Shown here: one piece after another, positions 8,824 to 64,000 of the stretch | Layout: each line of letters begins with the position of its first letter | How positions within the stretch are numbered: position 1 is the stretch's first letter | Source of the DNA: Laccaria trichodermophora | Lineage: Eukaryota; Basidiomycota; Agaricomycetes; Agaricales; Hydnangiaceae | Assembly: GCA_018417955.1 (NCBI GenBank) | Contig: JACTVC010000008.1 | Coordinates: 248,001 to 312,000 of the forward strand | Length of the DNA stretch: 64,000 nucleotides | Direction of reading: 5' to 3' | Program-made: the position numbers and the translations under genes | Notes under the pieces: model-generated | Seen by the model: the letters and a program-made list of their open reading frames with translations, nothing else | Database searches by the model: none | Told to the model about the DNA's origin: nothing

Positions 8824-10758
8824 ATGGCTCTACTCACATCTGCTACACACGATGCCAAACCAAAGCACTCTCTTTCGGAGATACACCATCTTATATTCAA
8901 GTCGGAATGCTCAGATCTTCTCGTACGTTGTCTTATTTAACACGTTATCTTGAATGTTGAAACAGAATTACAGGATCCGCTGAATTCGATTCCACTGCTT
9001 CTATCGTGCGATGACCCAGCCGCGAGGGAATTTTTATCTCTAATCGGAGAATGCTGCTCCGCGAAAGAGGTTGTCATCGCCGTTCAGGAAGCAGTTGAGA
9101 GGCTGGAGGTATCATTCAACTCCGATGACGATGCATGTGAAGAAATGGAGCAAAAAGTACCCCAACAGGCGGCTTCCTCGCCTGTAGTTTGCCTTTCTAT
9201 TCTCACTGAGCTATACGCTGCTTGTGAGCTCTTTTACTGTTCGATTCATGGGAAAGCAACTGATGACACACAGCGATCCCAAGGCTGAAGCTGCGAAAGA
9301 AAACAGCCCCGGACACTCTTCGACCTTTACTTACTGAGCTAGAAACCGTGAATCTTATGGCTGGGTCCACGGCGTCCACTGAAGAAGGCCGAGCACTTAT
9401 TTCTGCGACGGCGTCTTTGGTGAAAAGGGCTGCTCAGTGGGTCAAGGGCATCCCGGACGCCAAAGAGGAAGACATTCTAGGATGCACCGTACGTATCATC
9501 GAAATAGACTTCTTCTACAAAGATCTCACTTACATCTTTTAGAAACTCATGAGAAACCTCTTAGATCAAACTTTGATCGCTTATGCTCACTGTATTCGCT
9601 CATCCGTGGCACAGAGAACATTTGAGCAATGTTTCCCTCGACTGACTATCAAAACTTCCGTTAGTGCTGGATGGGAAGAGGGAGAGAAGGTGGTTTTTAG
9701 AAGCTCTCGTATGCGTTGTGTCCATTGTCCCGGCTTCATTCAACTAATCAAAATGGCAGGACGCGTATACCTTTCTTGGATGCACTCTCAAAGAACTCAC
9801 ATCACCACCAACGACGGCCACCCTAGTTGTCGTAGCATATCATCAAACTGGTTTGCCAGACTCAAGTGACGACCTGGCGCTCATCTTCCCCATCCTAATC
9901 TCCTCTATTCAAACCAACTCTGCCCTCGACGAATGCTTATCGATTCTGCTCAAGTTCCTTCACCACATACGATCGTCATCCGTATCTCCACCACCCACTA
10001 TCTCTCCAGAAATTGTAACGCCTTTGTGTACTATTCTACCTACCATAGCCAGCGCCCACCCTGACCCACTCGTCAGACATCAAGCATTCCGAATCATCTC
10101 CTCTCTCCTCACACTCACCCAACCCGATTTAAGGATTCAGCTCCTCGCAGACCTTAGTGGGGATTCGCAGCTCCCGCAGATGCGCGTTGCGGCCGTGGGT
10201 CTCGTTAAAGAAGCAATCATAGAGTCGCTCTCCTCTACGAAACCAAACCTATTCGCATCCCCACTCTTTTTACGTGTCTTTGGCCCTATACTGTTTAGGC
10301 CCGATCCTCCGGATTTGTTCAGTGGGAGCAAGGAACTTTCGTTGGGTAGCTTCCAAGAATCAAGCGAACCTCAGCGGTTGGTAGAATGCTTAGCACTCTA
10401 TTACGTCCTTCTCCAGCACGATCACCAGAATCTGGTTCGTTGCCTCTGCTTCCTCTCTCGATGCGTGCTGAAAGTATGATTCTTGTCCAGACGGGCGTGC
10501 GTGATAAAGATGTCTTATCAAGTGTTGAGAGCAGTCTTTTAGAACCACTGCGTTCGATCTTGGCAAAGTGGATGAACCATCCGTCTGTTTCTGGAAGTAA
10601 GTCGACCAGAACGGATTCTTGGGCCCGTCTGAACGCTCATCTCAGGTCATATGCATGCTATAATGCCCGTCGTGGCTCTTCAGATGGGTCTTGAGAGGGT
10701 AGACGCTGCCATAGCCCAACTCCGATTTCCCAGAACTTGGAGCATGCAAAAATACTAA
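8824..10758 (+). pseudogene. YAP1-binding/glomulin (Ybp/ALF4)-like gene, copy A, one frameshift
   Basis: The exon chain is 8824-8922, 8974-9223, 9274-9488, 9543-9708, 9760-10434, 10491-10596 and 10646-10758, all with GT-AG introns. The ATG at 8824 gives an N-terminus running into DLLDPLNSIPLLLS. The lengths total 1,624 nt, one base more than 541 codons. The excess is one T in the run 9694-9698: copy B reads VVLEAL here, while copy A shifts frame and stops at 9867-9869. Without it the product would be 540 aa. The Leu-rich helical layout, with a C-terminal block around RIISSLLTLTQPDLRIQLL, fits the fungal Ybp1/Ybp2/glomulin family (HEAT-like, linked to Yap1 oxidative-stress signalling or kinetochores in yeast). 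AATAAA lies at 10815-10820. A genome assembly error could also explain a single T. Confidence 0.7.
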
Positions 10759-10909
10759 CGAGGAATGGTGGAACTCCATATGTACCGTATCTAATCTGTT
10801 GACATGAAAATCTAAATAAAGAGTGAAAAAATCTATTTTCTCTTTCTGATGCTGTCTTTACCGTGTCGGATGCTCCGCTCCTCCTCCATTCTCACCATCC
10901 CCCACCATA

Positions 10910-12889
10910 ATGTCCCTCGACGACAAGGAAGACGTAGAAAAAGAAAGCAGTACATGGCAGCCTGTGACAGCGGTAGCGTCGTTGCCGAGCAATACTTCCC
11001 CTCTGTACACGGACCGCTGGACTAGAAAACTCTTATCATATGGGATCGAATCGCGGGGTACGTCTTTCTTACACCTCTTTCCTTTGGGATATGAAGTTTG
11101 GTTGTAGGGATTCAGCCAGTGCCGGTGGAGGAACGTACAGATACCCAGTTCAGCAAAATCTTTTTTCTCTGGTTTTCGTGGAACGTCAATATCCTTACGT
11201 GAGTCATTCGTTGCGTATTGCGTACGGTAATGGAGTTTTGACGGAGTGATGGCAAGGTTCTCCGCTGGAACGTTGGGCCCTGCTATCTTTGGGCTTGGAC
11301 TACGCGACTCGTGTCTGACCATCCTGTTTTTCAACATCATATGTTGCGCGCCGCCCGCTTACTTGTGCGTCATTTGTCCACTCCTGGCGTTTGAAGGTTC
11401 ACGCGACAGTTAAGAGCGACGTGGGGTCCTAAACTTGGGATGCGGCAGATGGTCATATCGCGATATTCTTTTGGGTATGTGGGCTTGGGGTGTAGGATTG
11501 ATTCACCATTTCCTGACCCTCAATGATAGATACTACGGAATTATTATACCCTCCATCCTCAATCTTGTCAACATGTTTGGGTTCTCTATCCTCAACTGCA
11601 TTCTTGGTGGGCAGGCTCTTGCAAGTGCAGGGAACGGAAACCTCAGCTGGACGTGAGCACCATTGTCTCTCCCGTCAGATCAGGAGCCACAGCATCTGAT
11701 GCTTTATCAAATTCAGAGTGGGCATCGTTGTCATTGCTATCATCTCACTGCTGGTCTCGTTCTGTGGATACGAAGTTTTGAACTGGTAAGCCCAAGCTCA
11801 TTCTTTACCTATGATTTCTAATGTCAAATAGGTACGAAAAAATATCATGGGTCCCAGTACTGATCACGTTCATCATTGCCCTTGGAGTGGGAGGCAAACA
11901 TTTGTCTAATCCTCCGCTCGCGGAACCTGCAACGGCAGCTGGTATCCTTGGTTTCGCGGGCACCCTTGCTGGCTTTGCCATTACATTCTCGAGCCTAAGC
12001 TCCGATTTTACTACTTACTACCGGTCGGATGTCTCTGGGTAAGTTATTGCCGTGCTCACATGCCATCTGAGCCACGCTGACATATCGTCAGTTGGAGGAT
12101 ATTCGGGTACTCTTTTGCGGGGCTCTTACTACCTATCGTACGTTACCATCGTGCGTCTTCGCTCTCTTACGCTCAATCATCCCCCGCAGGTCACTCTCCA
12201 GTGCCTTGGTGCTGCAGTAGTTATTGCAGCTCCTTCCATACCCGCTTGGGAACAAGGATAGCAGGCGGAAACATTGGCGGCCTCTTGGAGGCCATGGTCC
12301 ACCCCACCGGAGGATTCGGAAAGTTCCTCGCAGTGCTTCTGAGTCTTTCAGTGGCAGGCAACATCGCAGGAACATTTTATTCGATATCGCTGAACATTCA
12401 GATCTTCATTCCTCCCCTGGTTGTAGTTCCACGATATGTATTCTCGGTAGTTGCTACGGCGATGTAAGTGCTCCCAATCGCCTTCTTCACGGAAACTTAC
12501 ATTCTCTTCTCAGAGTGATACCAATATCGATCGTAGGCGCACACAGGTTCTATGACACGATCACCAACTTCCTTGGGCTGATCGGGTACTGGGCCAGCGC
12601 GTTTATCGCTATTGTCATTCTAGAGCATCTTGTGATCCGACACAACAACCCTGCGGAGTATGACCTCGATGACTGGGACGCACCAAGAAGGTTGCCTTTG
12701 GGCATCGCTGCTTTTGTTGCTGGGATAGCTTCGTTCGGACTTGTTATACCTTGTATGAGCCAGGTGTGGTTCACGGGCCCAATCGCCAAAACGACGGGGG
12801 ATATCGGCTTTGAGGTTGCGTTTGGGGTCAGTGCAGTACTATACCTTCCTTTTCGTCTGCTTGAGATTAGAATACTGGGGCATGTGTGA
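10910..12889 (+). pseudogene. NCS1-type purine/cytosine permease, copy A, single-base deletion
   Basis: Ten exons: 10910-11057, 11108-11198, 11257-11364, 11415-11474, 11530-11652, 11717-11785, 11832-12038, 12092-12137, 12190-12463 and 12514-12889. All splice sites match copy B. Exon 9 is 274 nt rather than 275: copy B reads GGATACGCAGG where copy A lacks one base, giving an in-frame TAG at 12259-12261 and a frameshift. Everything downstream (GGFGKFLAVLLSLSVAGNIAG and the final exon to TGA 12887-12889) is otherwise open. The lesion is therefore recent, or a sequencing error. A truncated product would lose roughly the last 215 residues, including several membrane segments. Confidence 0.85.
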
Positions 12890-15800
12890 TATATATGTGC
12901 AAGACATGCCTGCGCATATTCACCGTCAATTCCAAGGGTTTCCAGCGAGATTTCGCAATTGAGCATGGACATCACGTTGTCAAAATTCTCCAAGTTGTCG
13001 CAGACGAAAACGTTTGTCCTTTTAGTTTTACATGTTACGGTGCAACATCACCCAATAAAGGTCGCCACTGGGTCTAACCTCATTGGCCCGCAGGCTCCGG
13101 AATGCGTCAGCTTCATTCAACCTCATATACGAAAGATAAATACACGGTTGAACAACTGAAAAAGCTGAGTTCTCGTGCACGACGCGGGCCAGCTCATAAA
13201 CAAGGTAAAGGGCGGGATTCACGGCGAATCATAATGCCAGACGGTGAAAAAAGCTGTTTTGAGCTTAGAAACTCTTTCAATTCTTCGGAACGTGACCCTT
13301 GTACTGGTCATCCACTACTTTGCCCACACGTTCCTACGTATCGTCCTCCTGCCACCAATGGGTTCCCAGCCTAACGGCGTGTTTGAGTTGCTGTCCGAAC
13401 ACCGTTTGTTCCTCGTCAAAAGGTTGTCCTAGCAGTAATCGGATCCTGTCTGCCATGGCTCCTAGGGGGCTGGGGTCAGAGACGGGGGATCGACTTGAAT
13501 GGGGAGGGGACGTTCATGTCATTTGCAATGGCGAATTTGGCTCCTTTCAACTTCAAGTGGTTTTGCACACAACCACGCAAGTCAATTGGGTTGAAGATTT
13601 GATGGACTCTGCTGCGGATGCTAGTAAGGAAGAACACTATGATCGTTTCTTGTCGAAGGGTACTATGGTTTTTGTAGTGGTTGGTGGGTTGTCGAGGAGG
13701 TTTGGTGATGATTCGTTGGCTTTTGCCCAGTTTGTGGCGTTTTAGAGGTAGGGGTGGAGAGCGGCGAGGGCGAGAGGGAGGGAGAGGTTGAATACATGGC
13801 TGAGACGCATGCAGGTTTCTTTTGGTGGGGGTTGAAAGGGTCCTTTCAGAGTCAGACTCTGCGTCCAGGTCTGTCGCGTTTATTGGCATCCAATATGGTC
13901 AAATGTGGGTTCAGCGAATCCGGGCCATGGCGCAGCTGCGATGTATGCTAGCTCATGAGGGTCATGAGAATGAACAGCAAACATCGTAGCATTTAGACTG
14001 GTTTGAGGGGACGTGTGGAATGAGTACTTCGAGACTAGGTGTTTGATTACGTCTGGAGATTGTATGAGTGCTTTGAAGAAATATTTTTTCCCGAAGACAT
14101 ACCTTCCTTGGTAGGAGGTGTTTCGAAGTATGGATCAGGAGACGCGCTCAGCGGTCGAATCCTCTCCCATAGAGCCCCACAAACAACGACGATGCAAAAG
14201 TCGACTCATGCCTGTCAAAGAAGGGGAGTTGGGCCGTGAATGACGATGACAACGATGGGCTCAACAGTTCGGCAAGTTTGGCACCATCAACTCCGATACT
14301 AGCCTCTCAGCGTATTTCACAACAATGACGAGCCTCCAATACGCATTGTGAATGGCACATAAGCCGTGCAGAAATCCGTCAAAGGTGCATATCGACAACC
14401 AGGTCTATAGATTCGTTAGCTACCGCCATGATGGGAACAAAGAGAGCCATACTCGGGAAGTCTCCACAATAAGATGTTAACCGATGAATCAAAAGCCGTT
14501 TGACCTCACGTTGATAAGATTTGAAGACCACGACCCTCCCTTTGCCTGTGAGCGCTCTTTCGAGCATTGTTGTCACTTATGAGCATCGAAGGCCTCGACA
14601 AAACTCAACCTCCCAGCACAGTTCACTGGTAAGGTCTGACCCCAATCGGAACTTTCAATGACGACTGTAAACGGGCTGAGCTGCTACACGATAGATTGCG
14701 TCGTGAAAGAAAGTTCAGAGGCGGGGTATGCACACCTTTCCGCAGCCATGGCTGCAGGTGGAAGACGCTTCCTTGGGTTTTGAAAGGGCATACTTGGGGC
14801 ATACGGACGTCAATTCCTGGATCACAGGGTATGTAGAAAGAGCCAAAGTTCTTGTGAGCGTGCCTCCCAGCGTCTTTAAGAAAAACGGCTGACAGGATGT
14901 GGGTATTACCAGGGCAGAGGTACCCGGAGACGATGGAAATGAGTCGACGATACGGTGATCAAGATTCAAGAAATGCAGTCAAATTGCGCTGATAGGGAAT
15001 TGCGGATGAGACAGCTGAGTGGGAGGAGAAGGACAGATGGATTGGCGTGGATTGTGATGCTCCGGAGAGACTTGACAAGTAAGATCTGCTGAGTTTGAGG
15101 GTCGACATTCATCGGTGGGGACGTAGATGTCCACGGGACCGTCGAGATCGTGTTCTTGCGTCTCCTGTGCTACTAACAAACTCAATCCGCTCACCAACGC
15201 CGCATTCGTTCACGTTCCCCACGAATTGTGGCGATAGTTGAGGAGCGCCAATTCAATTTCGACATCGAGCGAGATTCTCCAGTCCGTTCGCACTGCAAAT
15301 TCACTCCAGCTCGAAGACATCTGCGCGGTACACGGTGGCGACTCTCCATCCCATCCACATGATTTCCAACCAACGAGTCCGAGGCTCGTTGACGTTCCAA
15401 TCCTGTGAAAAGACGGGTAACAAAGGGAACTGGCCGTCTATCTGAGAAACGCAAACCGCGGAAATGCCAGAGCACAGTGGGCGCCTGCCTGAGGATTCCG
15501 GGGTGGGTGACAGGCGAGATATATAGGACCGAGGTGTGAGATGGATGGAGCTGGACGGCTGCTAATGGGATGAGGGACGGATGTCAGTTGAAGGAGACAG
15601 ATAAGGAGACAGATATTGATCAGGCTTCTTGCCCATCGTTTCCGTTCGTTTCACATTATGCCTTTGGTTACTGAAGGCTCGACATCGAGGTACAGTTATT
15701 GTTATCCGTCGGAGAAATACGCCGCTATTCAATCTGTTAAATGCGAGTCAGAGACTCATAGTGGTGACGAAATAGTCTTACACAGGAATTGTGACCTTGT

Positions 15801-17060
15801 CTGGGCGAACTGGTCGTTCCCTGAAAATGTGAACCCATGCTTCAATCGTCAAGGCCCTGCTAATGTTGGATTTCGCCCCAGAACGCTCGCACGCCCCAGC
15901 GGAGAGGTGGATTTCTAAGTCTGAGTTTTTGAGGTGTGCTGGCGAGAAAGTGCAATCTCGCGGGTGCGTTGTGGTAAGATCAATCACGACTTGGTTCATC
16001 ACAACCATCACTCTCCTAGCCAGGATGCTCACCATCTCTGCTCTACGTGCGCGTGAGGGCCCATCGTCTGGCCCTTCGCGCCGTTTCTGGGAGGATAAGG
16101 CGTCGTCGAGTCACCTCGATGACATGGGTACGTACTCAGTACTTATCTGCTATCATTCTCATCGTAATTTCGTCAGTCCACAGAGTTGACCTGACGTGAC
16201 TATTTCAACGTCCCCATCCTTTTCTGGACAATATCTTTGCGTAGACTTCCGACTGCCCTGTAACACGCTGCGATCCTGGGGTTTCCGATGTCGGTCATCT
16301 GCCACATGCCTCCCAACACTCTTCCTCCCCTTTTGCCGCATCCTCATCGTTGTTCAATGAAGGCAATGGCCACGATTTCCAGCAGCAACCTACAGGACGT
16401 TATTGAGTGCACTGATCTCAGATGTGTGGATGATCTTGATGGACCGATGAACAACGGTGAGGAATATTTTCTATTTCAGATCCATCTTCCATTCATACAC
16501 ACATTATCTAGTACCAAGGATCGTGTGTATCGCAAGCCGCTCGCGGGCGTCCATTTCTCCTCAATGGTTCTTTACCGTAACTCAAACGCAGGCAAGGATC
16601 CTCTCCGCTTTTCGTCGCTTTCATCTAACCCTCCTCACAGTAAAAGCTTTTCGGGTTGCGAGATCAAGAAAAGGAGACACCATTCAAAGGTCGTCACCCA
16701 GCAAGCCTCACAACCCGGTGTACTGATGTGGCAGATGTCCGTGGACAGGAGGGATCGTCGGACATTTGGAGGATGTAGGTTCATTCAATGTTAAAGTTTC
16801 AGCTGTTGCTGATGACTGCCCTCAGGTCGGCAGAATTCAAGTTGGCTCGACAATACCGTTCGGCGGGGACATGATCTCAAACATACCACGGGTTGTTCAA
16901 AGACTTGGCATCTCTTCCATTCCGCTCGTTTGCACGCCACGTATATAGGCCTGGCCGTGGTCGTCCAATTGATTTGGTTTGGTAAGTGAGATTTCATCTG
17001 TACCGCTCCTTTTCTATCTCTCACTAGTCCGATCTAGAGCTACCAGTTCCTCGAACCTGC
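12890..17060. other. Distal part of duplication copy A, unrecognised sequence, probably decayed genes
   Basis: About 4 kb with no convincing intact gene. Open pieces shared with copy B include a plus frame at 13456-13745 (ends DDSLAFAQFVAF), a minus frame at 14379-14576 (around CGDFPSMALFVPIMAV), and plus frames around 16288-16794 with possible GT-AG introns. The part 13370-15960 also matches, inverted and more weakly, 50940-53610. I do not recognise any of these as a known family. Confidence 0.5.
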
Positions 17061-24245: not shown

Positions 24246-25847
24246 AGCTCCTTTGAGGATTTCGAGGTGAGTGGTGGTTCTGGTTGAATGGCATGTGTGT
24301 GTGGAATTTACTGTTGTTTCATTTCATGTGGATGACAGCCTGGCCTGCTGCCCCCCTGAGATAACATCAGCATCGGTATCTGGAGTATCTCCTGCGATTT
24401 GAAGATCCCTCAACATGGTGGCAAGAATCTGGACAGGCTGAGAGGAAGTAGGGACAGGAAGGTGGCTCTGGATGGATGTCTCCTTGCTTGGTGCAAGCAT
24501 ATCAGCAGTAATGACATCAGGATTGAATGGCCAGATGCTGGTCTTGCAGAAAGCAGTCTTGATGAGTTCTGGGGTCAGAGTGGTAATGTAGGCCTTGGAT
24601 ATGACCTGGAGAAAATTTCCCTTGTCGATTGCATTCCCAGTTGTATGAAGCAGTGCATCGCGCTCCACACCAAGATAGTGTTTCAGCACAGCAAACACGA
24701 CCACATCAAGACCTTGATAGATGTGTGTCCCATGCACAACATAGCAGATGACTATGACCATGTGGAGGTGAGCAAGAAGGAGAAAGGCGACCGTGTAGTG
24801 TGAGTTGTGTCCGTCCACAATTAGTAAGCAGTACTTGCCATTTGCCTTTTCTCGTGTCGCTTTCTCAAATAACTTCATCCATGATGCACCAATTTCGCCA
24901 TCTGTCCAGCCCTTCTGCTGGTATCTGATCCTAGCAGAAGATTTATTTACAGACATGAAGATAGTGAATAGAATGACATACGATGCATTAAGGGGATTAT
25001 TTTCCCCCCATTTGACCTGGTAGGCGCTCCCCTTGAAGATAACGGCAGGAGGTGTGCCTGTGCCATCTGCACAGATTGTAACGATGGTGGTAATATTTTT
25101 ACATGTTCCAGAGCGCTGCTGGTAGAGTGTGGCTTTTGTACAGGGGCCGAAAACATACTCACGCTCACCACCTCCCTGGGCCTGTATTCCAACTTCATCT
25201 GTTGCGTATGTGTTCTCCTCTTTGATCTTGTATTTTGTGATGGTCTCCCCGAGAAGTTTCCACCATGCCTTGTTGTTGTGTGGATTTGTTGCACGTCCTT
25301 GTTTGTCTTCTAGTGGTCGGGAACATGAGATCTTGATCCGTTCGGAATACTTTTTGGAAAAGCGGTAAGTCCAATTCTCTCTGACACCTTTGATGGGAAA
25401 GGAAGCACCAAGGCACACACTGCATATGTCATTGACATGCTCCTTCAGCCGTGCATGACTGAGAGGGAACCCATGATACGCCATCTTGTTAATGAAATCG
25501 ATGACGATGTTGACCTCGGAATCAGTAAGCCAGGATCAATCTGCACTTGCTCGTTCACACAACATTCCACCTGCAACATGTCGTTTCAAGGTCATATAGC
25601 TGAGTTTGATATGATTTCCTGTCAAAAAAATGAGTTGAATGACATTTAGAATAGCATTAATATACTTACCAGTCTCTTCAAATTGAAGACTCTCGAAATC
25701 GAGGCAGATTTTGCGATATCCACAACGATCTTTCTTCAGTTTCTTTTGATCTGCCTTGTATGCGGCAACAGCCCGGACCATCAAAGCCTCATAAACACAT
25801 TTGCGTGCATAAGCCTTGTCGACATCGGATTTGGCTCAGCCAGCCAT

Positions 25848-45808: not shown

Positions 45809-46020
45809 TGGAAAGGCTTTGTTTTCAGTCAGTTACTGAAATTTTCAGATAGTCATCACAATCTTAACATGTATAAGATATCACAGAGGTCAATTGTTAC
45901 AAAAGTTTTCATAAAGCTATTTGAACAAGTTATTGACTTCTGTGAAGTAAGAGTTTATAATTGGTATATCTTCACTAATTTTTCAAGATCTTCCAACAGA
46001 CAGTAAGTAATGATCAGGCC
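45809..46020 (+). pseudogene. Inverted fragment of a second NACHT gene, 3' end only
   Basis: Plus-strand sequence aligns with the end of the main exon of the NACHT gene on the opposite strand: here FIKLFEQVIDFCEVRVYNW, there LIKIFQEVIDFNEVRVYNG. It retains the donor GTAAGAG after the codon GAA, the acceptor CCAACAG, the triplet ACA (45999-46001) and the next donor GTAAGT. No further microexons follow; homology ends by about 46020. It starts directly at the outer edge of element 3. Confidence 0.65.
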
Positions 46021-46270: not shown

Positions 46271-49200
46271 TCATTGTAATCTGGATAGCTGTGTCTCTCT
46301 CTATATATTTTGAACATGAATATTGAGTAAGTGGTAAGAGATAGAAAAAAAGCATACCCTCTAAAAATGGGAGAGTTGTATGACACCAAAGATTCTAATA
46401 TGGTAGAAAATGGAGTTGACTTGCCCACTATATATTGGAAATAAGTGACCTGGTTAAATAATGTGAAGAAGTACATACTTTCTAACAAAAAGAATGGTTG
46501 AAAGAGGAGCTGGAATTGGAAATGGATCAAAGACATACAAGCTACAAAACATGAGCATTCTTCTATAATAAGAAATAAAAACATACAATCTGATTTAGAA
46601 TAATCATATATCAGAGTGATGGAAATGAGAGTGAATGGACAACCTACAGTCTAAAAAAATGAAATGAAGAGATGTTATAAAATTGGTCTATGGAATGCTT
46701 AAACTCTACTAACCTCCTTAAAAGATATTGATTGAAGATTAATTACCTGATAAAGAATAATGACTGAATAGATACAGATTGAAAAACAAAATGTACAAAA
46801 TAAAACTTACAAGATATGCAGGAGAGACCACATACTTTCTTAAAAAAAGTAAGAAGAGATAGTGTGATAAGAGTAATTCATGGCCAAAAGCAAAGAAACT
46901 CACCTGCTAAAAAGAAGCACCAAAATATGTGTTACCAGAAGGGTGTACATTAAAAACCAGGCCAACTCACCCACTGAAACAAGACAGGCCACAGTCAGTG
47001 TCACCAGAAGAGTGCACATTAAAAACCAGGCCAACTCACCCCCTGAAACAAGACAGGCCACAGTCAGTCTCACCAGAAGAGTGCACATTAAAAACCAGGC
47101 CAACTCACCCCCTGAAACAAGGCAGGCCACAGTCAGTCTCACCAGAAGAGTGCATATCAACAACCAGGCCAACTCACAAACTGAAACAAGACAGGCCACA
47201 GTCAGTCTCACCAGAAGAGTGCACATTAAAAACCAGGCCAACTCACAAACTGAAACAAGACAGGCCACAGTCAGTCTCACCAGAAGAGTGCACATTAAAA
47301 ACCAGGCCAACTCACTGCCTGAAACAAGACAGGCCACAGTCAGTCTCACCAGAAGAGTGCACATTAAAAACCAGGCCAACTCACCCTCTGAAACAAGACA
47401 GGCCACAGTCAGTCTCACCAGAAGAGTGCACATTAAAAACCAGGCCAACTCACTGCCTGAAACAAGACAGGCCACAGTCAGTCTCACCAGAAGAGTGCAC
47501 ATTAAAAACCAGGCCAACTCACCCACTGAAACAAGACAGGCCACAGTCAGTCTCACCAGAAGAGTGCACATTAAAAACCAGGCCAACTCACCCTCTGAAA
47601 CAAGACAGGCCACAGTCAGTCTCACCAGAAGAGTGCACATTAAAAACCAGGCCAACTCACTGCCTGAAACAAGACAGGCCACAGTCAGTCTCACCAGAAG
47701 AGTGCACATTAAAAACCAGGCCAACTCACATCCTGAAACAAGACAGGCCACAGTCAGTCTCACCAGAAGAGTGCACATGAAAAACCAGGCCAACTCACAT
47801 CCTGAAACAAGACAGGCCACAGTCAGTGTCACCAGAAGAGTGCACATTAAAAACCAGGCCAACTCACCCCCTGAAACAAGACAGGCCACAGTCAGTCCCA
47901 CCAGAAGAGTGTACATTAAAAACCAGGCCAACTCACCCACTGAAACAAGATAGGCCACAGTCAGTCTCACCAGAAGAGTGCACATTAAAAACCAGGCCAA
48001 CTCACAGACTGAAACAAGACAGGCCACAGTCAGTCTCACCAGAAGAGTGCACATTAAAAACCAGGCCAACTCACAGACTGAAACGAGACAGGCCACAGTC
48101 AGTCTCACCAGAAGAGTGCATATCAACAACCAGACCAACTCACTTTCTATAAAAAGAATGGCCAGAGCATGTGTTTTAGAAGTGTGCAAAATGAAATGGA
48201 GAAAAGCATACTTTCTGAAATAGGGAACAGCACATCATAATCACCAGAACAGTGCACAAGAAAGGGAAAGGCCAGAGAATGAGTCAGCATATGAGTTAAT
48301 AGTTAATAGAGGAACAACTCACAACCTAGCAAATGGTAGGTGTAGAAGAGAATTGAGTCAGAACATAGTTATTTCAGAAACTTAATAATAACTTACCCAC
48401 TAAAGAAATCCCTTATAGTCATACAGAGACAATGTAAATAGACCATATATCACCTTCTAAATTCATAAACAAGAACATTAGCTGTACAAGTAGCAAGGTC
48501 AACAGTTAATACTTACATTCTGAAAGAAACAGACAGCTGCTGATAAGATGTGACATGTTATGCAAAATATTGGCCCACAAACTAATGACAACCATGAGAA
48601 TAGATAAAAACTTGAACAATTTGTAGACATACATGCTGCAAGAAAAAACAACAATCAGAATAAATCTATTCTTCTCTTGATGATTGTTTTGTTCTCACTT
48701 CCTGTGCTTTATCAATAGTAATAAAATTTTGTTATAAGTTGGCTTACATTCTGTAAAACAGATCAACATGCTATTTTGATACATCTTAGTCACTGTATAG
48801 AACCACATACCTCCTATTAATTTTACAGATTAACTTGTGAGCAGCATTACACTCCTGTTACTTACTGTCTGTTGGAAGATCTCAATAAATAACTGGAGAT
48901 GTCTCCATTATAAACTCTTACTTCATTGAAATCAATGACTTCTTGAAATATCTTGATCAAATTCCTTGTAATCATTGACTCTTGCAATGTCTTATACCTG
49001 TCAAGAAATGATAACCATCTGAGAAAATTGCAATAACTGACCTGAAACAAAATCTTTCCATCCTTCACACAGCTTAACATCCCTTCCCTTTTATCAGACC
49101 TCAAATTCAGCATAGTATTATACCATGTTTTACTCTGAAAAATCAGTAAGTTTTTAATGAGAGTTACCAATGAGGTCATAATTGTTTCATCCACATTTGA

Positions 49201-50701
49201 TCCTTGCTTTTGGAATCCCAAAAGAATATGGTGTGGCCAATTAAGGGAAGTATACTCAGCCACATCACCCTCAAAAAAGTCTTTTGAAGGATATTTTACC
49301 AGATGCTGCAAAGATAGTATGGCTAGATGAATGTGTTGCAGAGGAGGATTGATAAAATATTGCTTTGATCGTGATTGGATGGCCAAAAAATCCCGGAGAG
49401 ATGTGTGATAGAGCATAATTGGCTTATCATCATCTCCAGGAATTTTGATAATGGACTGTACTTGCAATAGCCCACAAATGACCTCCTCACACTGAAGAGA
49501 GAGGAGAGAGCTGAGAAAGGAAATGGATTTGTTCTCTGTCAGAACCATGATTGTTCCAAGAATCTGACAGAAGTCTTCTGTCCAAGAAGCAGAAGAGAGG
49601 ACTTGTTCATAGAGTGAATCTAGACCATTAGCTCCTGATGCCAGAAGTTTTTGCAAGGCCCTATGTGGTATGAGATCTCCACCAACACATTGGATCAATA
49701 TAGTAGCAAATGTGAATGAACTGCAAGCCTTGTTAAGAAGTGTAATGAGATCTTGAGCTGATGGCCAGGGCCTTGGGATCCTCCGCATGATTTGCCAATT
49801 TTCGTTATAGATGCAATCAAATGCACTCCGAAAATGTACTTCAATGTCCCGACGAGCATCAAAATTCTCTAGCTCCAGACGATGCAAAAACCAAGAGTGA
49901 GAATTATCAAACTTTTTTCGAATATGTTCCTCCACCCTGCTCGTGAGGAGAATTCGGAAAGGAAGACAAGTCCTCCCAGAAGAAGCCCTGAGCAGGACAT
50001 CAATGAAGTCTGCCATCTCAGCTTTATCATCACATTCATCAAGAGCATCAATAACAACAACAGAGCTATAGGAGGTTCGTGAAGTGTTGAGATGGAGTGG
50101 GTCTATGATGAGCCTTTGAAGTCGATAGGCCATAGAGACAGTCAACCCGAGCAGGGCTGGCTCATCCTTAAGAGCATGTTCAATAAATGGCTTTGCACCA
50201 GGAACAGTGAGAGAGATCTGATGGGCAAGAGTAGGAATCAGGCGAGATATATGGCTGCGTTCACCAGCCCCTCGCAAAAAGAAGAAGCTCCCTAAGAGGC
50301 GGCCCTCCTCAGTATAGCGCTCCGCAATGGTCTGTGCCAATGCCGATTTGCCATAGCCAGCTGGTCCGTTAAGCCAACAGACAACAGCTCGCTCATCATT
50401 ACCATGGCCATCGAGCCACCACCGGATCTGAGCAATGACCTCCAAACGAGTCCCAGGGTCACATCGAGCGACGTGACCTGCGCGAGTGTGTGTAGCATTG
50501 CTGACAGGACTAAGCAAGCTGGCTAGACCTACATGCCATCAATTATATGAGCAGTATTAATGGATTGTAAAACTTTGACGTACTTGGAACTGGCGGAGGG
50601 CCATGAAAAACAACATCGCGGCCGGCGTTTATGAGCTGTGCTCTTCCGGATATGGTGGTTCCGATAGCGTTTTGCAGCTGTGCGGCTCTTGACGAATCCA
50701 T
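46271..50701 (-). CDS. NACHT-domain NLR-like protein with a C-terminus encoded by one-codon microexons
   Basis: STAND-class signalling ATPase, by analogy with fungal NLR-like proteins used in non-self recognition. Exon 1 is 50701-50584 (ATG at 50699-50701, ending FHGPPPVP). A 55-nt intron spans 50529-50583. Exon 2 is 50528-48922. Together they give 1,725 nt, exactly 575 codons. Walker A GPAGYGKS is at residues 94-101 and Walker B VVVIDALDE at about 196-204, followed by LLTSR and the conserved HTSLRDFL. A donor GTAAGAG at 48921 opens a series of introns separated by 3-nt exons (see the separate entry). The last proposed exon is 46300-46271, reading about nine residues to a TGA. The predicted total is about 620 aa. 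Read without splicing, the frame ends at 48862, so a 594-aa product is the conservative alternative. No WD40, ankyrin or TPR repeats are seen. The domain call is strong; the spliced tail is inferred. Confidence 0.8.
46358..48868 (-). other. Array of 36 consecutive 3-nt microexons
   Basis: On minus, 36 sites have AG, three bases, then a donor. Triplets (lowest coordinate): ACA 48866, GAG 48811, AAT 48748, CAT 48633, AAT 48517, AAG 48454, TGG 48397, GTT 48323, AAA 48212, AAA 48144; repeat array TCT 48075, TCT 48006, TGG 47937, GGG 47868, GAT 47799, GAT 47730, GCA 47661, AGG 47592, TGG 47523, GCA 47454, AGG 47385, GCA 47316, TTT 47247, TTT 47178, GGG 47109, GGG 47040, TGG 46971; then CAG 46904, AAA 46836, GAG 46714, ACT 46648, ATT 46587, CTT 46539, AAA 46479, TGG 46425, AGG 46358. 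Introns run 45-119 nt. Donors are GTAAGT, GTATGT, GTGAGT and similar, with GCAAGT after 46425 and GTGATA after 48454. All triplets are in phase 0 and none is a stop. Confidence 0.7.
46907..48146 (-). repeat. 69-bp minisatellite: 66-nt intron plus variable triplet, 17-18 units
   Basis: The period is exactly 69 bp from 46971 to 48077. On minus, each unit starts with GTGAGTTGGCCTGG, has an ACTGAC branch-site-like word about 25 nt before the 3' end, and ends CTTGTTTCAG. That is a complete short intron, followed by a triplet. Units differ at only a few bases in the 66-nt part but show seven different triplets. The period is a multiple of three, so long spurious frames run through it on both strands. 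Confidence 0.95.
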
Positions 50702-55637: not shown

Positions 55638-55748
55638 TCCTTCGTTGTCGTTGTCATTCGCCATCTTATATCCAAGTCGGGATGCTCAGATCTCCTCGTG
55701 CGTTGCTAGACTCAACACGTTATATTGAATGTTGAAACTGAATTGCAG

Positions 55749-57514
55749 GATCCGCTGCATTCGATTCCACTCCTTCTATCGTGCGATGACCCAGCTGCGG
55801 TGGACTTGTTATCTCTGATCGGAGAATGCTGCTCCGCGAAAGAGGTTGTCATCGCCGTTCAGGAAGCAGTTGAGAGGCTGGAGGTATCATTCAACTCCGA
55901 TGACGATGGATTTGAAGCAATGGAGCAAAAAGTACCTCAACAGGCAGCTTCCTCGCCTGTAGTTTGCCTTTCTATTCTCACTGAGCTATACGCTGCTTGT
56001 GAGATATTTCCCTTCTTGATTCATGGGAAAGCAACTGATGACACACAGCGATCCCAAGGCTTAAGTTGCGAAAGAAAACAGCCCCGGACACTCTTCGACC
56101 TTTTTTTGCTGAGCTAGAAAACGTGAATGTTATGGCTGGTCCCACCGCGTCCACTGAAGATGGCCGAGCACTTATTTCTGCGACGGCGTCATTCGTGAAA
56201 AGGGCTGCTCAGTGGGTCAAGGGCATCCCGGACGCCAAAGAGGAAGACGTTTTAGGATGCACTGTACGTATCATCGAAATGGACTTCCTCTTCAAAGATC
56301 TCACTTACATCTTTTAGAAACTCATGAAAAACCTCTTAGACCAAACTTTGACCGCTTATGCTGACTGTATCCGCTCATCCGTGGCACAGAGAACATTTGA
56401 GCAATGTTTCCCTCGACTAATAGTCAAAACTTCCGTTGATGCGGGGTGGGAAGAAGGAGAGAAAGTCGTTCTAGAAGCTCTCGTATGCGTTGTGTCCATT
56501 ATCTCGGCTTCATTCAACTAATCAAAATGACAGGACGCGTACACCTTTCTTGGGTGCACATTCAGAGAACTCACATCAGCACCAACGACGGCCACCCTGG
56601 TTGTCGTAGCATATCATCAAACCGGTTTTCTAGACTCAGATAACGACCTTGCGCTCATCTTCCCAATCCTAATCTCCTCTATTCAAACCAACTCCGCCCT
56701 CGACGAATGCTTATCGATTCTGCTCAAGTTCCTTCACTGCATACGAGCGTCATCCGTATCTCCACCACCCATTCTCTCTCCAGAAACTGTAACGCCTCTG
56801 TGTACTATCCTACCTACCATAGCCAGCGCCCACCCTGACCCACTCGTCAGACATCAAGCATTCCGAATCATCTCCTCCGTCCTCACACTCACCCAACCCG
56901 ATTTAAGGATTCAGCTCCTCGCAGACCTCACTGGGGATTCGCAGCTCCCGCAGATGCGTGTTGCGGCCGTGGGTCTCGTGAAAGAAGCAATCATAGAGTC
57001 GCTCTCGTCCACGAAACCAAATCTATTCGCATCCCCGCTCTTCTTGCGTGTCTTTCGCCCTATACTGTTTAGGCCCGATCCTCCGGATTTGTTCAGTGGG
57101 AGCAAGGAACTTTCACTGGGTGGGTTCCAAGAATCAAGCGAACCTCAGCGGTTGGTAGAATGCTTAGCACTCTATTACGTTCTTCTCCAGCGCGATCACC
57201 AAAATCTGGTTCGTTTTCTCTGCTTACTTTCCTTGATGCGTGCTGAAAGTATGATTCTTGTTCAGACGGGCATACGTGATGCAGATGTCTTATCAAGTGT
57301 AGAGAGCAGTCTTTTAGAACCATTGCGTTCGATCTTGGACAGTGGATGAGCCATCCGTCTATTTCTGGAAGTAAGTCGGCCGAAACAGACTCTTGGGCCC
57401 GTCTGAATTCTTATTTCAGGTCATATGCATGCTATAATGTCCCTCGTATCTCTTCAGATGGGTCTTGAGAGGGTAGATGCTGCCATAGCCCAACTCCGAT
57501 CTCCCAGAACTTAG
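55749..57514 (+). pseudogene. YAP1-binding/glomulin-like gene, copy B, 5' exon replaced and 3' frameshift
   Basis: Exons equivalent to copy A: 55749-55998, 56049-56263, 56318-56482, 56534-57208, 57266-57370 and 57420-57514. Exon 4 is intact here (KVVLEAL). The first exon of copy A (MALLTSATH...) is missing: homology begins only at its last third (CCATCTTATA, 55661) and no in-frame ATG is found upstream. Exon 6 is 105 nt instead of 106 (TTGGACAGTGG versus TTGGCAAAGTGG), giving TGA at 57347-57349. AATAAA lies at 57593-57598. Copies A and B are therefore disabled at different positions. Confidence 0.7.
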
Positions 57515-57688
57515 AACATGCAAAAATAGTTACCTACGAGGATGGAGGGGAACTGTATATCGTATCTAATCTGATATCAGATACAAGATCTAAATAAAGA
57601 GTGAAAAAAATCCGAATGCTACCCTATTTATCGCTCCAGTCATATCGCATGCTTCGCTCCTACACCATTCTCCCCAATCCCCATCGTC

Positions 57689-59669
57689 ATGTCCCTCGAC
57701 GAGAAGGAAGATTTGGAAAAAGAAGGCGGGACATGGCAGCCTGTGACGGTGGTAGCGTCGTTGCCGGGCAATACTTCCCCTCTGTACGCGGACCGCTGGA
57801 CTAGAAAACTCTTGTCATATGGGGTAGAATCGCGAGGTACGTCTTTCTTGCACTTTTTTCCGCTGGGATGCGAACTTTTGTTGTAGGGATTCAACCAGTG
57901 CCGGTGGAGGAACGCACAGATACCCATTTCAGCAAGATCTTTTTTCTCTGGTTTTCGTGGAATGTCAATATCCTTACGTGAGTCATTCGTTGCGTATTGC
58001 GTACGGTAATGAGTTTTGACGGACTGATGTCCAGGTTCTCTGCTGGAACGCTGGGCCCTGCTATCTTTGGGCTTGGACTACGCGACTCGTGTCTGACCAT
58101 CCTGTTTTTCAACATCATATGTTGCGCGCCGCCTGCTTACTTGTACGTCATCCGTCTACTCCTGGCATTTGAAGGTTGACGCTGCGGTTAAGAGCGACAT
58201 GGGGTCCTAAACTTGGGATGCGGCAGATGGTCACATCACGATATTCATTTGGGTACGTGGGCTTGGACTGTAGTATTGACCCACCATTTCCTGACCCTCA
58301 ATGATAGATACTACGGAATAATTATACCCTGCATCCTCGATCTTGTCAACATGTTTGGGTTCTCTATCCTCAACTGCATTCTTGGGGGGCAGGCTCTCGC
58401 AAGTGCAGGGAACGGAAACCTCAGCTGGACGTGAGCACCTTTGTCTTCCCCGTCAGGTCAGAAGTTACAGCATCTGATGCTTTATTAAACTTAGAGTGGG
58501 CATCGTTGTCATTGCTATCATCTCACTGCTGGTGTCGTTCTGTGGATACGAAGTTTTGAACTGGTGAGCCCAGGCTCTTTCTTTACCTATGATTTCTGAT
58601 GTCAAATAGGTACGAAAAAATGTCATGGGCCCCAGTACTGATCACGTTCATCATTGCCCTTGGAGTGGGAGGCAAACATCTGTCCAACCCTCCGCCTGCG
58701 GAACCTACAACGGCACCTGGTGTTCTTGGTTTCGCGGGCACCCTTGCTGGCTTTGCCATCACATTCTCAAGCCTAAGCTCCGATTTTACGACTTACTATC
58801 GGCCGGATGTCTCTGGGTAAGCTATTGCCGTGCTTGCATGTTATTTGAGCTACACTGACATATCGTCAGGTGGAGGATATTTGGCTACTCTTTTGCGGGG
58901 CTCTTATTACCCATTGTGCGTTACCATCGCGCGTCTTCGCCCTCTCACGTTCAACCCTTCCCTTGCAGGTTACTCTCCAGTGCCTTGGTGCTGCAGTAGT
59001 TATTGCAGCTCCTTCCATACCCGCTTGGGAACAAGGATACGCAGGTGGAAACATTGGCGGCCTCTTGGAGGCCATGGTCCGTCCCACCGGAGGATTCGGA
59101 AAGTTCCTCGCAGTGCTACTGAGTCTTTCAGTGGCAGGCAACATCGCAGGAACATTTTACTCGATATCACTGAACATCCAGATCTTTATTCCTCCCCTGG
59201 TTGTAGTTCCTCGATATGTATTCTCGCTAGTTGCTACGGCGATGTAAGTGCTCCCAATCGCCTTCTTCACAGAAACTTACATTCTCTTCTCAGAGTGATA
59301 CCAATATCGATTGTAGGCGCACACAGGTTCTATGACACGATCACCAACTTCCTTGGGCTGATCGGGTACTGGGCCAGCGCGTTCGTCGCCATTATCATTC
59401 TGGAACATCTTGTGATTCGACACAACAACCCTGCAGAGTATGACCTTGATGACTGGGACGCACCAAGAAGGTTACCTTCGGGCATTGCTGCTCTTGCTGC
59501 TGGGATAGCTTCGTTCGGACTTGTTATCCCTTGTATGAGCCAGGTGTGGTTCACGGGCCCAATCGCCAAAACGACGGGGGATATTGGCTTTGAGGTTGCG
59601 TTTGGGGTCAGTGCAGTACTATACCTTCCTTTTCGTTTGCTTGAGATTAGAATACTGGGGCATGTATGA
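57689..59669 (+). CDS. NCS1-type purine/cytosine permease, copy B, intact
   Basis: Plasma-membrane nucleobase or vitamin transporter of the fungal purine-cytosine permease (Fcy/Tpn1-like) family; substrate unknown. Ten exons: 57689-57836, 57887-57977, 58035-58142, 58193-58252, 58308-58430, 58495-58563, 58610-58816, 58870-58915, 58969-59243 and 59294-59669. All have GT-AG introns of 48-64 nt. Total 1,503 nt, 500 aa plus TGA, normal for the family. Visible blocks in order: DRWTRKLLSYG, TFSAGTLGPAIFGLGL, ATWGPKLGMRQM, LNCILGGQALASAGNG, GVGGKHLSNPP, SWEQG-like loop then GYAGGNIGGLLEAM, SLSVAGNIAGTFYS, HRFYDTITNFLGLIGYW, and a C-terminal IRILGHV. About 12 hydrophobic segments. The ATG is the first in frame after the upstream gene's polyadenylation signal. 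It is the only demonstrably complete permease of the three in the window. Confidence 0.92.
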
Positions 59670-62600
59670 TATATATGTGCAAGACATGCCTGCGCATATT
59701 CTAGCGAAATTTCGCAATTGCACATGGACGTCACGTTGTCAAAATGCTCCAAGTTGTCGCGGACGAAAACGTTTGTCCTTTTAGTTTTACATGTTACGAT
59801 GCAACATCGCCCAAAAAAGGTCTCCACTTGGCCTAACGTCGAATACGGCGTTGGATTCATTCCACCTCATCTACGAAAGATAAATACACGGTTGAACAAC
59901 TGAAAACGCCGAGTTCTTGTGCACTGGCAGCGCGGGCCAGCTCATCTGGATTCCAAACAAGGTAAAGGGCGGGATTCACGGCGAATCATAATGCCAGGGT
60001 GAAAAAAACTGTTTTGCGCTTGGCAACTCTTTCAATTCTTCGGAACGTGACCCCTGTACTGGTCATCCACACACGCTCCTACGTATCGTCCTCCCGACAC
60101 CAATGAGTCCTCAGCCTAACGGCGTGTTAGAGTTGCCGTCCGAACACCGTTTGTTCCTCGTCGAAAAGTTGTCCTAGTAGTAATCGGGCCCTGTCATATT
60201 TTGACGATAACGGCGCAGGGCGGGTGGGCCATGGCTCATAGGGGGCTGGGTTCAGAGACACGGGAGCGGCTTGAATGGGGAGGGGACGTTAATGTCGTTT
60301 GCAATGGCGAATTTGGCTCCTTTCAGCTTCAAGTGATTTTACACACAACCACGCAAGTCGATTGGGTTGAAGATTTGATGAACTCTGCTGCGGATGCCAG
60401 TAAGGAAGAACGCTATGATCGTTTCTTGTCGGAGGATACTATGTTTCTTGTAGTGGTTGGTGGGTTGTCGAGGAGGTTTGGTGATGATTCGTTGGCTTTT
60501 GCCCAGTTTGTGGCGTTTTAGAGGTAGGGGTGGAGAGCGGCGAGGGCGAGAGGGAGGGAGAGGTTGTATACACGGCTGAGGCGCATGCAGGTTTCTTTTG
60601 GTGGGGCTGAAAGGGTTCTTTCAGAGTCAGAGTCTTCGTCCAGGTCTGTCGCGTTTATTGGCATCCAATATGGGTTCTACGAATCTGGGCCATGGCGCAG
60701 CTGCGATGTATGCTAGCTCATGAGGGTCATGAGAAATTAATAGCAAACGTCGCAGCGTTTAGACTGGTTTAAGGGGACGTGTGGAATGAGGACCTCAAGA
60801 CTAGGTGTTTGATTACGTCTGTGGAGATTGTATGAGTGCTTTGAAGGAGTATTTTTTCCCCAAGATATACCTTGCTTGGTAGGAGGTGTTTCGAAGAAGT
60901 ATGGATCAGGAGACGCGCTCAGCGGTGGTCGAATCCTCTCCCATAGGGCCCCACAAACAAAGCCGATGCAAAAGTCAACTCGTGCCTGTCAAAGAAGGTG
61001 AGTTGGGCCGTGAATGACGACGACAACGATGGGCTCACCAGTTCGGCAAGTTTGGCACCATCAACTCCGATATTAGCCTCTCAGCGTATTTCACAACGAT
61101 GACGAGCCTCCAATATGCATTGTGAACGGCACATAAACCGTGCAGAAATCCGTCAAAGGTCCATATCGACAACCAGGTCTATAGATTCGTTAGCTACCGC
61201 CATGATGGGAACAAAGAGAGCCATACTCGGGAAGTCTCCACAATAAGATGTCAACCGATGAATCAAAAAAGCCGTCTGACCTCACGTTGATAAGATTTGA
61301 AGACCACGACCCTCCCTTTGCCTGTGAGCGCTCTTTCGAGCATCGAAGGCCTCGACAAAACTCAACCTCCCAGCACAGTTCACTGGTAAGGTCTGAGCCC
61401 AATCGGAACCTTCAAAGACGACTGTAAACGATCTGAGCTGCTACACGATAGATTGCGTCGTGAAAGACAGTTCAGAGGCGGGGTATGCACACCTTTCCGC
61501 AGCCATGGCTGCAGGTGGAAGACGCTTCCTTGGGCTTTGAAAGGGCATACTTGGGGCATACGGACGTCAATTCCTGGATCACAGGGTATGTAGAGAGAGT
61601 CGAAGTTCTTGTGAGCGTGCCTCCCAGCGTCTTTAATTAAAACAGCTGACAGGATGTGGGTATTACCAGGGCAGAGGTACCCGGAGACGATGGAAACGAG
61701 TCGACGATATGGTGATCAAGATTCAAAAAATGCGGTCAAATTGCGCTGATGGGGCATTGCGGATGAGACAGCTGAGTGGGAGGAGAAGGACAGATGGATT
61801 GGCGTGGATTGTGATGCCCCGGAGAGACTTGACCTGCTGAGTTTGAGGGTTGACATCCATTGGTGGGGACGTAGATGTCCGCGGGACTGTCGAGATCGTC
61901 TTCTTGCGTCTCCTGTGCCACTAACAAACTCAATCCGCTCGCCAACGCCGCATTCGTTCACGTTCCCCACGAATTGTGGTGATAGTCGAGGAGCGCCAAT
62001 TCAATTTCGACATCGAGCGAGCTTCTCCAGTCCGTTCGCACTGCAAACTCACTCCAGCTCGAAGACATCTGCCCGGTAGTATCTGCTACAGGGTGGCGAG
62101 TCTCCATCCTATCCACATGATTTCCAACCAACGAGTCCGAGGCTCGTTGACGTTCCAATCCCGTGAAAAGACAGGTAACAAAGGGAACTGGTCGTCTATC
62201 TGAGAAACGCAAACCGCGGAAATGCCAGAGCGCAGTGGGTGCCTGCCTGAGGATCCCGGGGTGGGTGACAGGCGAGATATATAGGACCGAGGTTGGGTTA
62301 GGGAAGGGGGAGTTTTTGAGCCATCGTTGGGGGGATGGTGATGGAGGAAGAGCTGGAGGTTGAACGTTGAGGAGCGGATGAGGGGATGGAGGGAAGCTTG
62401 GACAGTGCTTCGCCTTTTGCTCGTACGTTTCGCAGAAGAAAGATAGGTAATTTGAGGGAATGGAGGAGGCGGTTGTGAGATGGATGGAGCTGGACGGCTG
62501 CTAATGGGATGAGGGACGGATGTCGGTTGAAGGAGACAGATAAGGAGATAGATATTGATCAGGCTTCTTGCCCATCGTTTCCGTTCGTTTCATTTTATGC

Positions 62601-64000
62601 CTCTGGTTGCTGAAGGCTCGACATCGAGGTACTTCGGAGAAATACACCGCTATTCAGACTGTTAAATGCGAGTCAGAGACTCATAGTGGTGACGAATTAG
62701 AAAGTCTTACACAGGAATTATGACATTGTCCGGGCGAACTGGTCGTTCCCTGAAAATGTGAACCCATGCTTCAATCGTCAAGGCCCTGCTAATGTTGGAT
62801 TTCGCCCCAGAACGCTCGCACGCCCCAGCGGAGAGGTGGATTTCTAAGACTGAGTATTTGAGGTGTGCTGGCGAGAAAGTGCAATCTCGCGGGTTGGGAA
62901 AGTGCGTGGACAACGACAAACATTTGTGATAAGATCAATCACGACTTGGTTTATCACAAGCATCTCTCTCCTAGCCAGGATGCTCACCATCCAATCACCA
63001 TCTCTGCTCTACGTGCGCGTGAAGGCCCATCGTAGGCGTCGTCGAGCCACCTCGATGACATGGGTACGTACTCAGTACTCATTCCTCATCTGCTAACATT
63101 CTCATCGTCATTTCGTCAGTCCACAGAGTTGACCTGACATGACTATTTCAACGTCCCCATCTTTTTCTGGACAATATCTTCGCATAGACTTTCGACTGCC
63201 TCTAACACGCTGCGATCCTGGGGTTTCCGATGTCGGTCATTTGCCACACGCCTCCCAACACTCTTCCTCCTCTTTTGCCGCATCCTCATCGTTGTTCAAT
63301 GAAGGCAATGGCCACGATTTCCAGCAGCAACCTACAGGACGTTATTGAGTGCACTGATATCAGATGTGTGGATGATCTTGATGGACCGATGAACAACGGT
63401 GAGGTATATTCTCTATTTCAGATCCGTCTTCCATTCATACACACATTATCTAGTACCAAGGATCGTGTGTATCGCAAGCCGCTCGCGGGCGTCCATTTCT
63501 CCTCAATGGTTCTTTACCGTAACTCAAACGCAGGTAACGATCCTCTCTGTTTTTCGTCGCTTTCATCTAACCCTCCTCACAGTTAAAGCTTTTCGGGTGG
63601 CGAGATTAAAGAAAAGGAGACACCATTCAAAGGTCGTCACCCAGCAAGCCTCACAACCCGGTGTACTGATGTGGCAGATAACCGTGGACAGGAGGGATCG
63701 CCGGATACTTGGAGGATGTAGGTTCGTTCGATGTTAAAGTTTCAGCTGTTGCTGATGTGCCCTCAGGTCGGCAGAATTCAAGTTGGCTCGACAATACCGT
63801 TCGCCGGGGACATGATCTCAAACATACCACGGGTTGTTCAAAGACTTGGCATCTCTTCCATTCCGCTCGTTTGCACGCTACGTATATTGGCCTGGCCGTG
63901 GTCGTCCAATTGATTTGGTTTGGTAAGTGAGATTTCATCTGTACCGCTCCTTTTCTACCTCTCACTAGTCCGATCTAGAGCTACCAGTTCCTCGAACCTG
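59670..64000. other. Distal part of duplication copy B, unrecognised sequence
   Basis: Counterpart of 12890-17060 with the same short frames, such as a plus frame at 60229-60521 ending DDSLAFAQFVAF and plus frames at 63230-63586. Copy B carries an extra stretch of about 170 bp at 62290-62460 relative to copy A. No gene family is recognised. Confidence 0.5.

Follow-up and report, generated by a model that had tools for sequence, protein, structure and literature searches.

A NACHT gene with a predicted tail of one-codon exons

The window analysed here, a 64,000-nucleotide stretch of the Laccaria trichodermophora genome, carries on its minus strand (50701-46271) a NACHT gene of the NLR type with 38 predicted one-codon exons at its 3′ end. 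Its features, in the direction of the gene, are as follows.

50584-50701, minus strand: predicted exon 1, with an ATG at 50701 and a reading (MDSSRAAQLQ...) that by eye is like the start of Laccaria amethystina P0002.
49042-50528, minus strand: exon 2, the NACHT body, supported by Pfam matches and homologues.
48991-49041, minus strand: predicted in-frame intron of 51 nt, removed also (by eye) in the L. amethystina gene model P0057.
48922-48990, minus strand: exon 3, 69 nt, ending in phase 0 at 48922, with a 69-nt stop-free counterpart in 18 of 18 arrays.
48323-48868, minus strand: head, ten predicted one-codon exons, ACA GAG AAT GAA CAT TTT AAT AAG TGG GTT (TENEHFNKWV), with introns unlike one another.
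48144-48214, minus strand: two predicted one-codon exons ahead of the repeat, AAA (48214-48212) and AAA (48146-48144).
46934-48143, minus strand: 69-bp minisatellite, 17.5 copies, with 17 predicted one-codon exons (SSWGDDARWARAFFGGW).
46358-46906, minus strand: tail, nine predicted one-codon exons, CAG AAA GAG ACT ATT CTT AAA TGG AGG (QKETILKWR), TGG having a GC donor.
46271-46300, minus strand: terminal exon, RETQLSRLQ followed by the stop TGA (46273-46271).

Parsing of the minus strand confirmed the AG|NNN|GT chain where a sequence-only reading of this DNA had placed it, each triplet flanked directly by an acceptor AG and a donor. That reading had counted 36 microexons, 19 of them outside the minisatellite; the chain and its outside part both exist, but the parse gave 38 triplets, 17 within the minisatellite and 21 outside. 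The introns separating the triplets span 45-119 nt, the range first reported, and the minisatellite introns are near-identical at 66 nt except for the last, which is 64 nt. Also as described earlier, the main exon has its phase-0 end at 48922, the triplets include no stop and the chain finishes in the in-frame TGA. The 575-codon body of the original description holds if the predicted 51-nt intron (49041-48991) is kept and becomes 558 codons when it is removed.

The 558-aa frame (P0001) matched the Pfam families NPHP3_N (2.2e-24) and NACHT (4.6e-9). No WD, ANK or TPR repeat was matched in this frame at E values up to 1, nor was an effector domain detected by Pfam within it, the 39 residues of exon 1 lying outside the scan. 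The microexon tail occupies the place where other fungal NLRs have C-terminal WD, ANK or TPR repeats. The closest named proteins among the matches listed were from L. amethystina, with up to 79% identity. An AlphaFold model of the gene body had a mean pLDDT of 53, and a fold search returned only weak matches, to P-loop and AAA-type ATPases and to ABC transporters, with no E value as low as 0.001; neither result was used.

The three-nucleotide spacing exceeds chance expectation

Outside the window minisatellite, 12 of 14 GTRNGT donors have an AG exactly 3 nt upstream, compared with 0.13 on average and never more than 3 in 2000 dinucleotide shuffles. The sequence-only reading had proposed such a comparison with shuffled DNA, and both the shuffle test and a pattern scan of the window and 21 loci favoured the chain. 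In the first 16 loci, AG-N3-GTRNGT occurred 520 times, while each of the other spacings from 0 to 30 occurred at most 112 times (several of these counts being inflated by the repeat itself) and the N3 spacing on the opposite strand occurred 14 times.

The site scores used for parsing were trained on the parsed loci themselves, and the held-out check used a splice model trained on a single paralogue, L025, whose introns are unrelated to those of the window. This model gave the 38-site window chain a score of 446; the runner-up over both strands of the 64 kb reached 36.6 and was the antisense of the same minisatellite, the other chains listed scoring 16 or less. With the minisatellite masked, an 11-site head chain scored 114 for 3-nt exons, versus 31 or less for exon lengths of 0, 1, 2, 4, 5, 6 and 9 nt. 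Without masking, 7-nt exons also formed a chain (163), by way of a weaker GT located 4 nt inside the minisatellite donors.

A family of arrays adjoining NACHT loci

A genome search with the array, a NACHT search and parsing of the fetched stretches together identified 18 arrays, the window and 17 paralogues, containing 714 triplets, and a NACHT match adjoins every one of them. As parsed, the chains hold 24 to 103 triplets and their middle parts 5 to 84 residues; the triplet counts are lower bounds, since weak sites were missed in L015, L017, L018, L023 and L025. The counts omit a far-upstream first site in each of L013, L017 and L022, as well as loci with fewer than five sites (the decayed copy L026, with 3, and L027-L029, with 1 each), and the family counts exclude one partial close paralogue, C20:390527. 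No chain was found at L027-L029, three distant NACHT loci (35-36% identity) taken from 53 more distant match rows.

The NACHT match is free of stops in 8 of the 18 copies, and in the other ten it contains stops, some of which may be introns, or is split, and some members of the family may therefore be dead. The triplets are stop-free in these copies as well. Among the best candidates, array DNA outside NACHT-linked loci was limited to one matching tail fragment (G000:C34:1153808) about 9 kb from L022, whose array is interrupted before its end; this suggests an insertion.

The most informative paralogue was L025, which has 49% NACHT identity, 29 triplets and 28 introns. None of its 378 intron pairs are alike, and comparison with the introns of the other arrays gave a single 19-nt match; at the DNA level L025 matched only itself. 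The chain spacing is thus not a by-product of one repeat, as the sequence-only reading had argued from the window. Head and tail residues are nevertheless conserved in L025, which reads K-E-M-Q-N-W-N-N-W ... K-E-I-I-I-Q-W-Q where the family has T-E-N-E-N-F-K-K-W ... K-E-T-I-L-K-W-R. Order shuffles fitted the family's head and tail as well in 1 of 100000 cases for L025 (with M, a weak site, inserted by hand) and in 0 of 100000 for L024; for the tail alone, the corresponding numbers were 55 and 82 of 200000.

Sequence evidence for coding triplets

None of the 714 triplets is a stop, where 42-52 would be expected from base composition and 46-47 with equal contexts collapsed, an expectation that is not a true probability given that the array copies are related. 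Endings AA, AG or GA occur in 0 of 154 triplets that start with T and in 35% of the others. Since triplets ending in AA or AG are frequent when they begin with A, G or C, the lack of TAA and TAG is not accounted for by splice constraint.

Both borders of the chain are consistent with coding. A stop-free 69-nt reading in phase 0 leads to a donor ahead of the chain in all 18 arrays, that of L025 being unlike the others. At the far end, a terminal exon of the form [RK][DE]T.L followed by a stop was present in 11 of the 14 arrays in which an acceptor was found, and in L010 by another pattern; L013 reads KDTTEL and then a stop. These readings use the upstream AG, and a second AG 2 nt downstream gives a different one in the window, L009, L017, L019 and L020. 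The terminal exons of L021 and L023 depart from the family reading, with no stop in 22 residues, and a search for one in L022, L024 and L025 found none. The GC donor after the tail Trp recurs in 17 of 18 arrays, including L025.

Public annotation touches the start of the chain. In the L. amethystina gene model P0057, exon 3 is joined to Thr and then VSNRRTMLLKS, showing that a gene caller accepted the first intron of the chain; by eye, 9 of the 12 residues at this end resemble what the window gives when translated past the first triplet into its donor. Among 120 listed homologues screened for exon-3-like ends, only P0057 continues into the first triplet and none goes beyond it, so microexon tails have probably been missed in annotated genomes. 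With the spliced tail as query, 5.8 billion proteins gave no match, though exons of 3 nt are rarely placed by gene callers.

If the splice sites are real, the ordinary mRNA could nevertheless skip most of them, joining exon 3 to the tail or terminal exon and including microexons only occasionally. Skipping any of the microexons leaves the frame intact, exons of 3 nt are difficult to define, and array length is very free, the middle varying as widely as the parse indicates; in addition, the available descriptions of the nank genes of Tuber melanosporum present them as alternatively spliced (PMC4986451, PMC3689799, PMC10197012). The lack of stops and the conserved head and tail residues nonetheless favour frequent inclusion, and we regard predominant skipping as unlikely.

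Two further features of the parsed arrays were recorded. No cysteine codon occurs among the 714 triplets and NGT triplets are rare (n=7), perhaps because NGT would make a competing donor. In 14 of the 18 arrays the long tail intron (window 46717-46835) is parsed at 103-119 nt, and in 12 of 18, including L025, it contains an internal AG|GTAAT, with a looser AG|GT in 2 more; a zero-length exon at this site was rejected, as what it would leave in the window, about 30 nt, is less than an intron needs.

Triplets vary more than the introns around them

Variability was assessed by comparing the divergence of triplets and introns, there being one codon per unit. In the six arrays with regular units (the window, L009, L010, L012, L013 and L014), mean triplet distances were 0.62-0.68 and intron distances 0.017-0.145, the sharpest cases being the window (0.678 versus 0.019) and L009 (0.669 versus 0.017). 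Unit pairs in which both flanking introns were identical but the triplet different made up 17 of 21 in the window, 13 of 18 in L009 and 0 of 9 in L010; L012, L013 and L014 had no unit pairs with both introns identical. Allowing up to one intron difference, the triplets differed at two or three bases in 32 of 42 pairs in the window, 33 of 50 in L009 and 0 of 13 in L010, and the triplets of the window and L009 look like draws from a small repertoire, not like stepwise mutants. The behaviour of L010, where all 9 identical-intron pairs share their triplet and codon blocks recur (RIED three times), is explained by the copying of whole blocks, codon together with intron.

Triplet likeness tracked intron likeness at p<0.05 in L010 only, one of the six arrays, and adjacent equal triplets exceeded shuffles only in the window (p=0.03); unit duplication alone therefore does not explain the pattern. 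No significant periodicity, helical or other, was found in the variable part of the six arrays. Between the close paralogues L019 and L020, differing bases numbered 19 of 81 in triplets and 74 of 1609 in introns (p=2e-8). Across 15 arrays, triplet versus intron distances were 0.128 versus 0.201 for the tail and 0.184 versus 0.204 for the head, while in the closest clade the triplets of head and tail were no more conserved than the introns (0.046 versus 0.044 and 0.088 versus 0.066, respectively).

Near-identical introns between triplets about as different as random ones, uncorrelated with intron likeness in five of six arrays, would also result if a single intron had spread, in the manner of the introner-like elements described in the available literature on fungi, to codon boundaries within an ordinary exon and so come to separate old, unrelated codons. 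Set against such an origin, L010 units were copied as codon plus intron, the 28 introns of L025 are unlike, and array matches (best candidates only) sit at NACHT loci except for the tail fragment near L022, whereas introner-like elements are near-identical introns spread over many unrelated genes. We consider this origin improbable; being a question of origin, it could also have preceded an exchange of codons of the kind proposed below.

Two readings in which the triplets are not exons fared worse. A translated 23-residue repeat, with the 69-bp units read through unspliced, could draw on the 444-codon frame open on the minus strand at 46900-48234, but unit lengths differ elsewhere (60-nt introns in L014, mixed in L012), 265 of 696 introns are not a multiple of three in length, 678 of 696 would produce a stop or frameshift if retained in the triplet frame, and L025 is free of the repeat, so a tandem protein repeat was rejected as scarcely credible. 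Equally implausible was a non-coding minisatellite that inherited its AG-N3-GT spacing by chance, for which the near absence of CpG in the arrays might speak, since the spacing persists where introns share nothing (L025), shuffles and other chance controls fall short of it, and stops are avoided.

The ratio of observed to expected CpG is 0.00-0.04 in the arrays and 0.84-0.97 at 0-18 kb and 50-64 kb of the window. CpG depletion is expected of methylated repeat DNA, and we infer that the array locus is heavily methylated. Only 1 of 714 triplets ends in C; the base after the triplet is always G, and the near absence of C-ending codons thus fits CpG loss.

A receptor tail that may be diversified codon by codon

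The sequence evidence strongly supports one-codon exons in this family. For the window, our preferred reading, to which we assign a probability of roughly 0.78, is a NACHT gene whose 38 triplets are spliced singly to form a C-terminal tail, likely the part of a receptor that varies and senses. It rests on the chain and its phase, on triplets free of stops and far more variable than the flanking introns, on recurrence in 18 paralogues and on residues conserved at head and tail. Most or all triplets would enter the mRNA, probably through stepwise, intron-defined splicing: intron definition is favoured where introns are short, and a 3-nt exon has no room for two spliceosomes, which would collide there. 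The predicted product is a NACHT protein with a tail of fixed ends and a free, hypervariable middle, which its place in the protein and its variability suggest may bind a ligand. Exon skipping, always frame-keeping in the parsed sequence, would perhaps be a further source of isoforms.

The middle has likely diversified through recombination among the intron repeats. The near-identical introns would be the substrate, and unequal exchange among them could add, remove or reorder single residues; it would never shift the frame, because homologous introns surround every codon and only whole codons are gained or lost. Selection would keep the residues of the middle diverse while the introns homogenise. 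Such codon cassettes, in which meiotic or mitotic exchange between intron repeats, within and between the 18 genes, writes peptides residue by residue and splicing choice multiplies them, we rate at somewhat less than an even chance. If they exist, a receptor tail would change one amino acid at a time, a diversification at one-amino-acid resolution with no risk of frameshift, and they would show how the concerted evolution of an immune-type receptor could rest on introns instead of repeats in the protein.

The sequence-only reading had known of no consecutive one-codon exons in a fungal receptor, but a precedent exists: later papers, in the text available, attribute to Iotti et al. (2012, Fungal Biol 116:261-275) the finding of codon-sized microexons, spliced alternatively, in the NACHT-ANK genes of T. 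melanosporum (PMC4986451, PMC3689799, PMC10197012). As far as those descriptions go, the Laccaria genes resemble nank in belonging to an expanded fungal NACHT family with tens of codon-sized exons, here predicted from DNA. Tuber melanosporum is an ascomycete and Laccaria a basidiomycete, and unlike nank genes, which bear ANK repeats, the Laccaria body has no detected ANK; the gene would work like nank and is not filed as one. In the six regular Laccaria arrays the intron is the repeat and the codon the variable position, a point on which the Tuber descriptions at hand are silent, so the two may or may not differ. In the literature covered, with subscription papers mostly outside it, we found no report of such arrays in basidiomycetes or of codon-variable intron minisatellites, and some basidiomycete papers mention microexons in other genes (P450, beta-glycosidase). 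What appears to be new, relative to these sources, is a family with no detectable ANK whose repeat is made of introns, with the codon as its variable element.

A second parallel is provided by the WD, ANK and TPR repeats of high internal conservation (HIC) in fungal NLRs, for which concerted evolution together with diversifying selection has been proposed in the accessible text (PMC4986451). Like HIC repeats so described, the Laccaria arrays consist of near-identical tandem units with variation limited to few codons, in what would be the sensing part of an NLR; the HIC unit is a repeat of the protein, whereas the Laccaria unit is an intron, with one translated codon predicted per unit. Selection for a diverse middle, as that source argues for HIC repeats (PMC4986451), would account for codons that stay diverse while their introns are homogenised.

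Chains of tiny in-frame exons able to vary a protein are likewise a feature of the micro-exon genes of Schistosoma. Those genes encode secreted proteins, have exons of several codons and are not known to include an NLR. A natural system with dozens to about 100 consecutive 3-nt exons would be a hard test for exon-definition and stepwise-splicing models, and long reads make it testable what these fungal NLRs sense.

Surroundings of the locus

Behind the gene, at window 45809-46010, lies a diverged inverted copy of exon 3, the first intron and the first triplet. It is present also in L009, L010, L017, L020 and L021 and in a short form in L015, and is absent from the other 11 arrays; its arms are 19-27% apart. 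The possibility that it forms an RNA stem was rejected: the arms diverge separately, with 3 columns varying in both, and the 3′ flank folds no better than shuffles.

The NLR gene lies in CpG-poor, repeat-rich DNA between two copies of a stretch of about 8 kb (8881-17059 and 55656-64000), approximately 46.8 kb apart and 87-98% identical in the listed blocks. A reading frame for a Tc5-type DDE transposase is found at 24327-25535 of the window. Each 8-kb copy contains one Kinetochor_Ybp2-type protein, 92% identical to the other.
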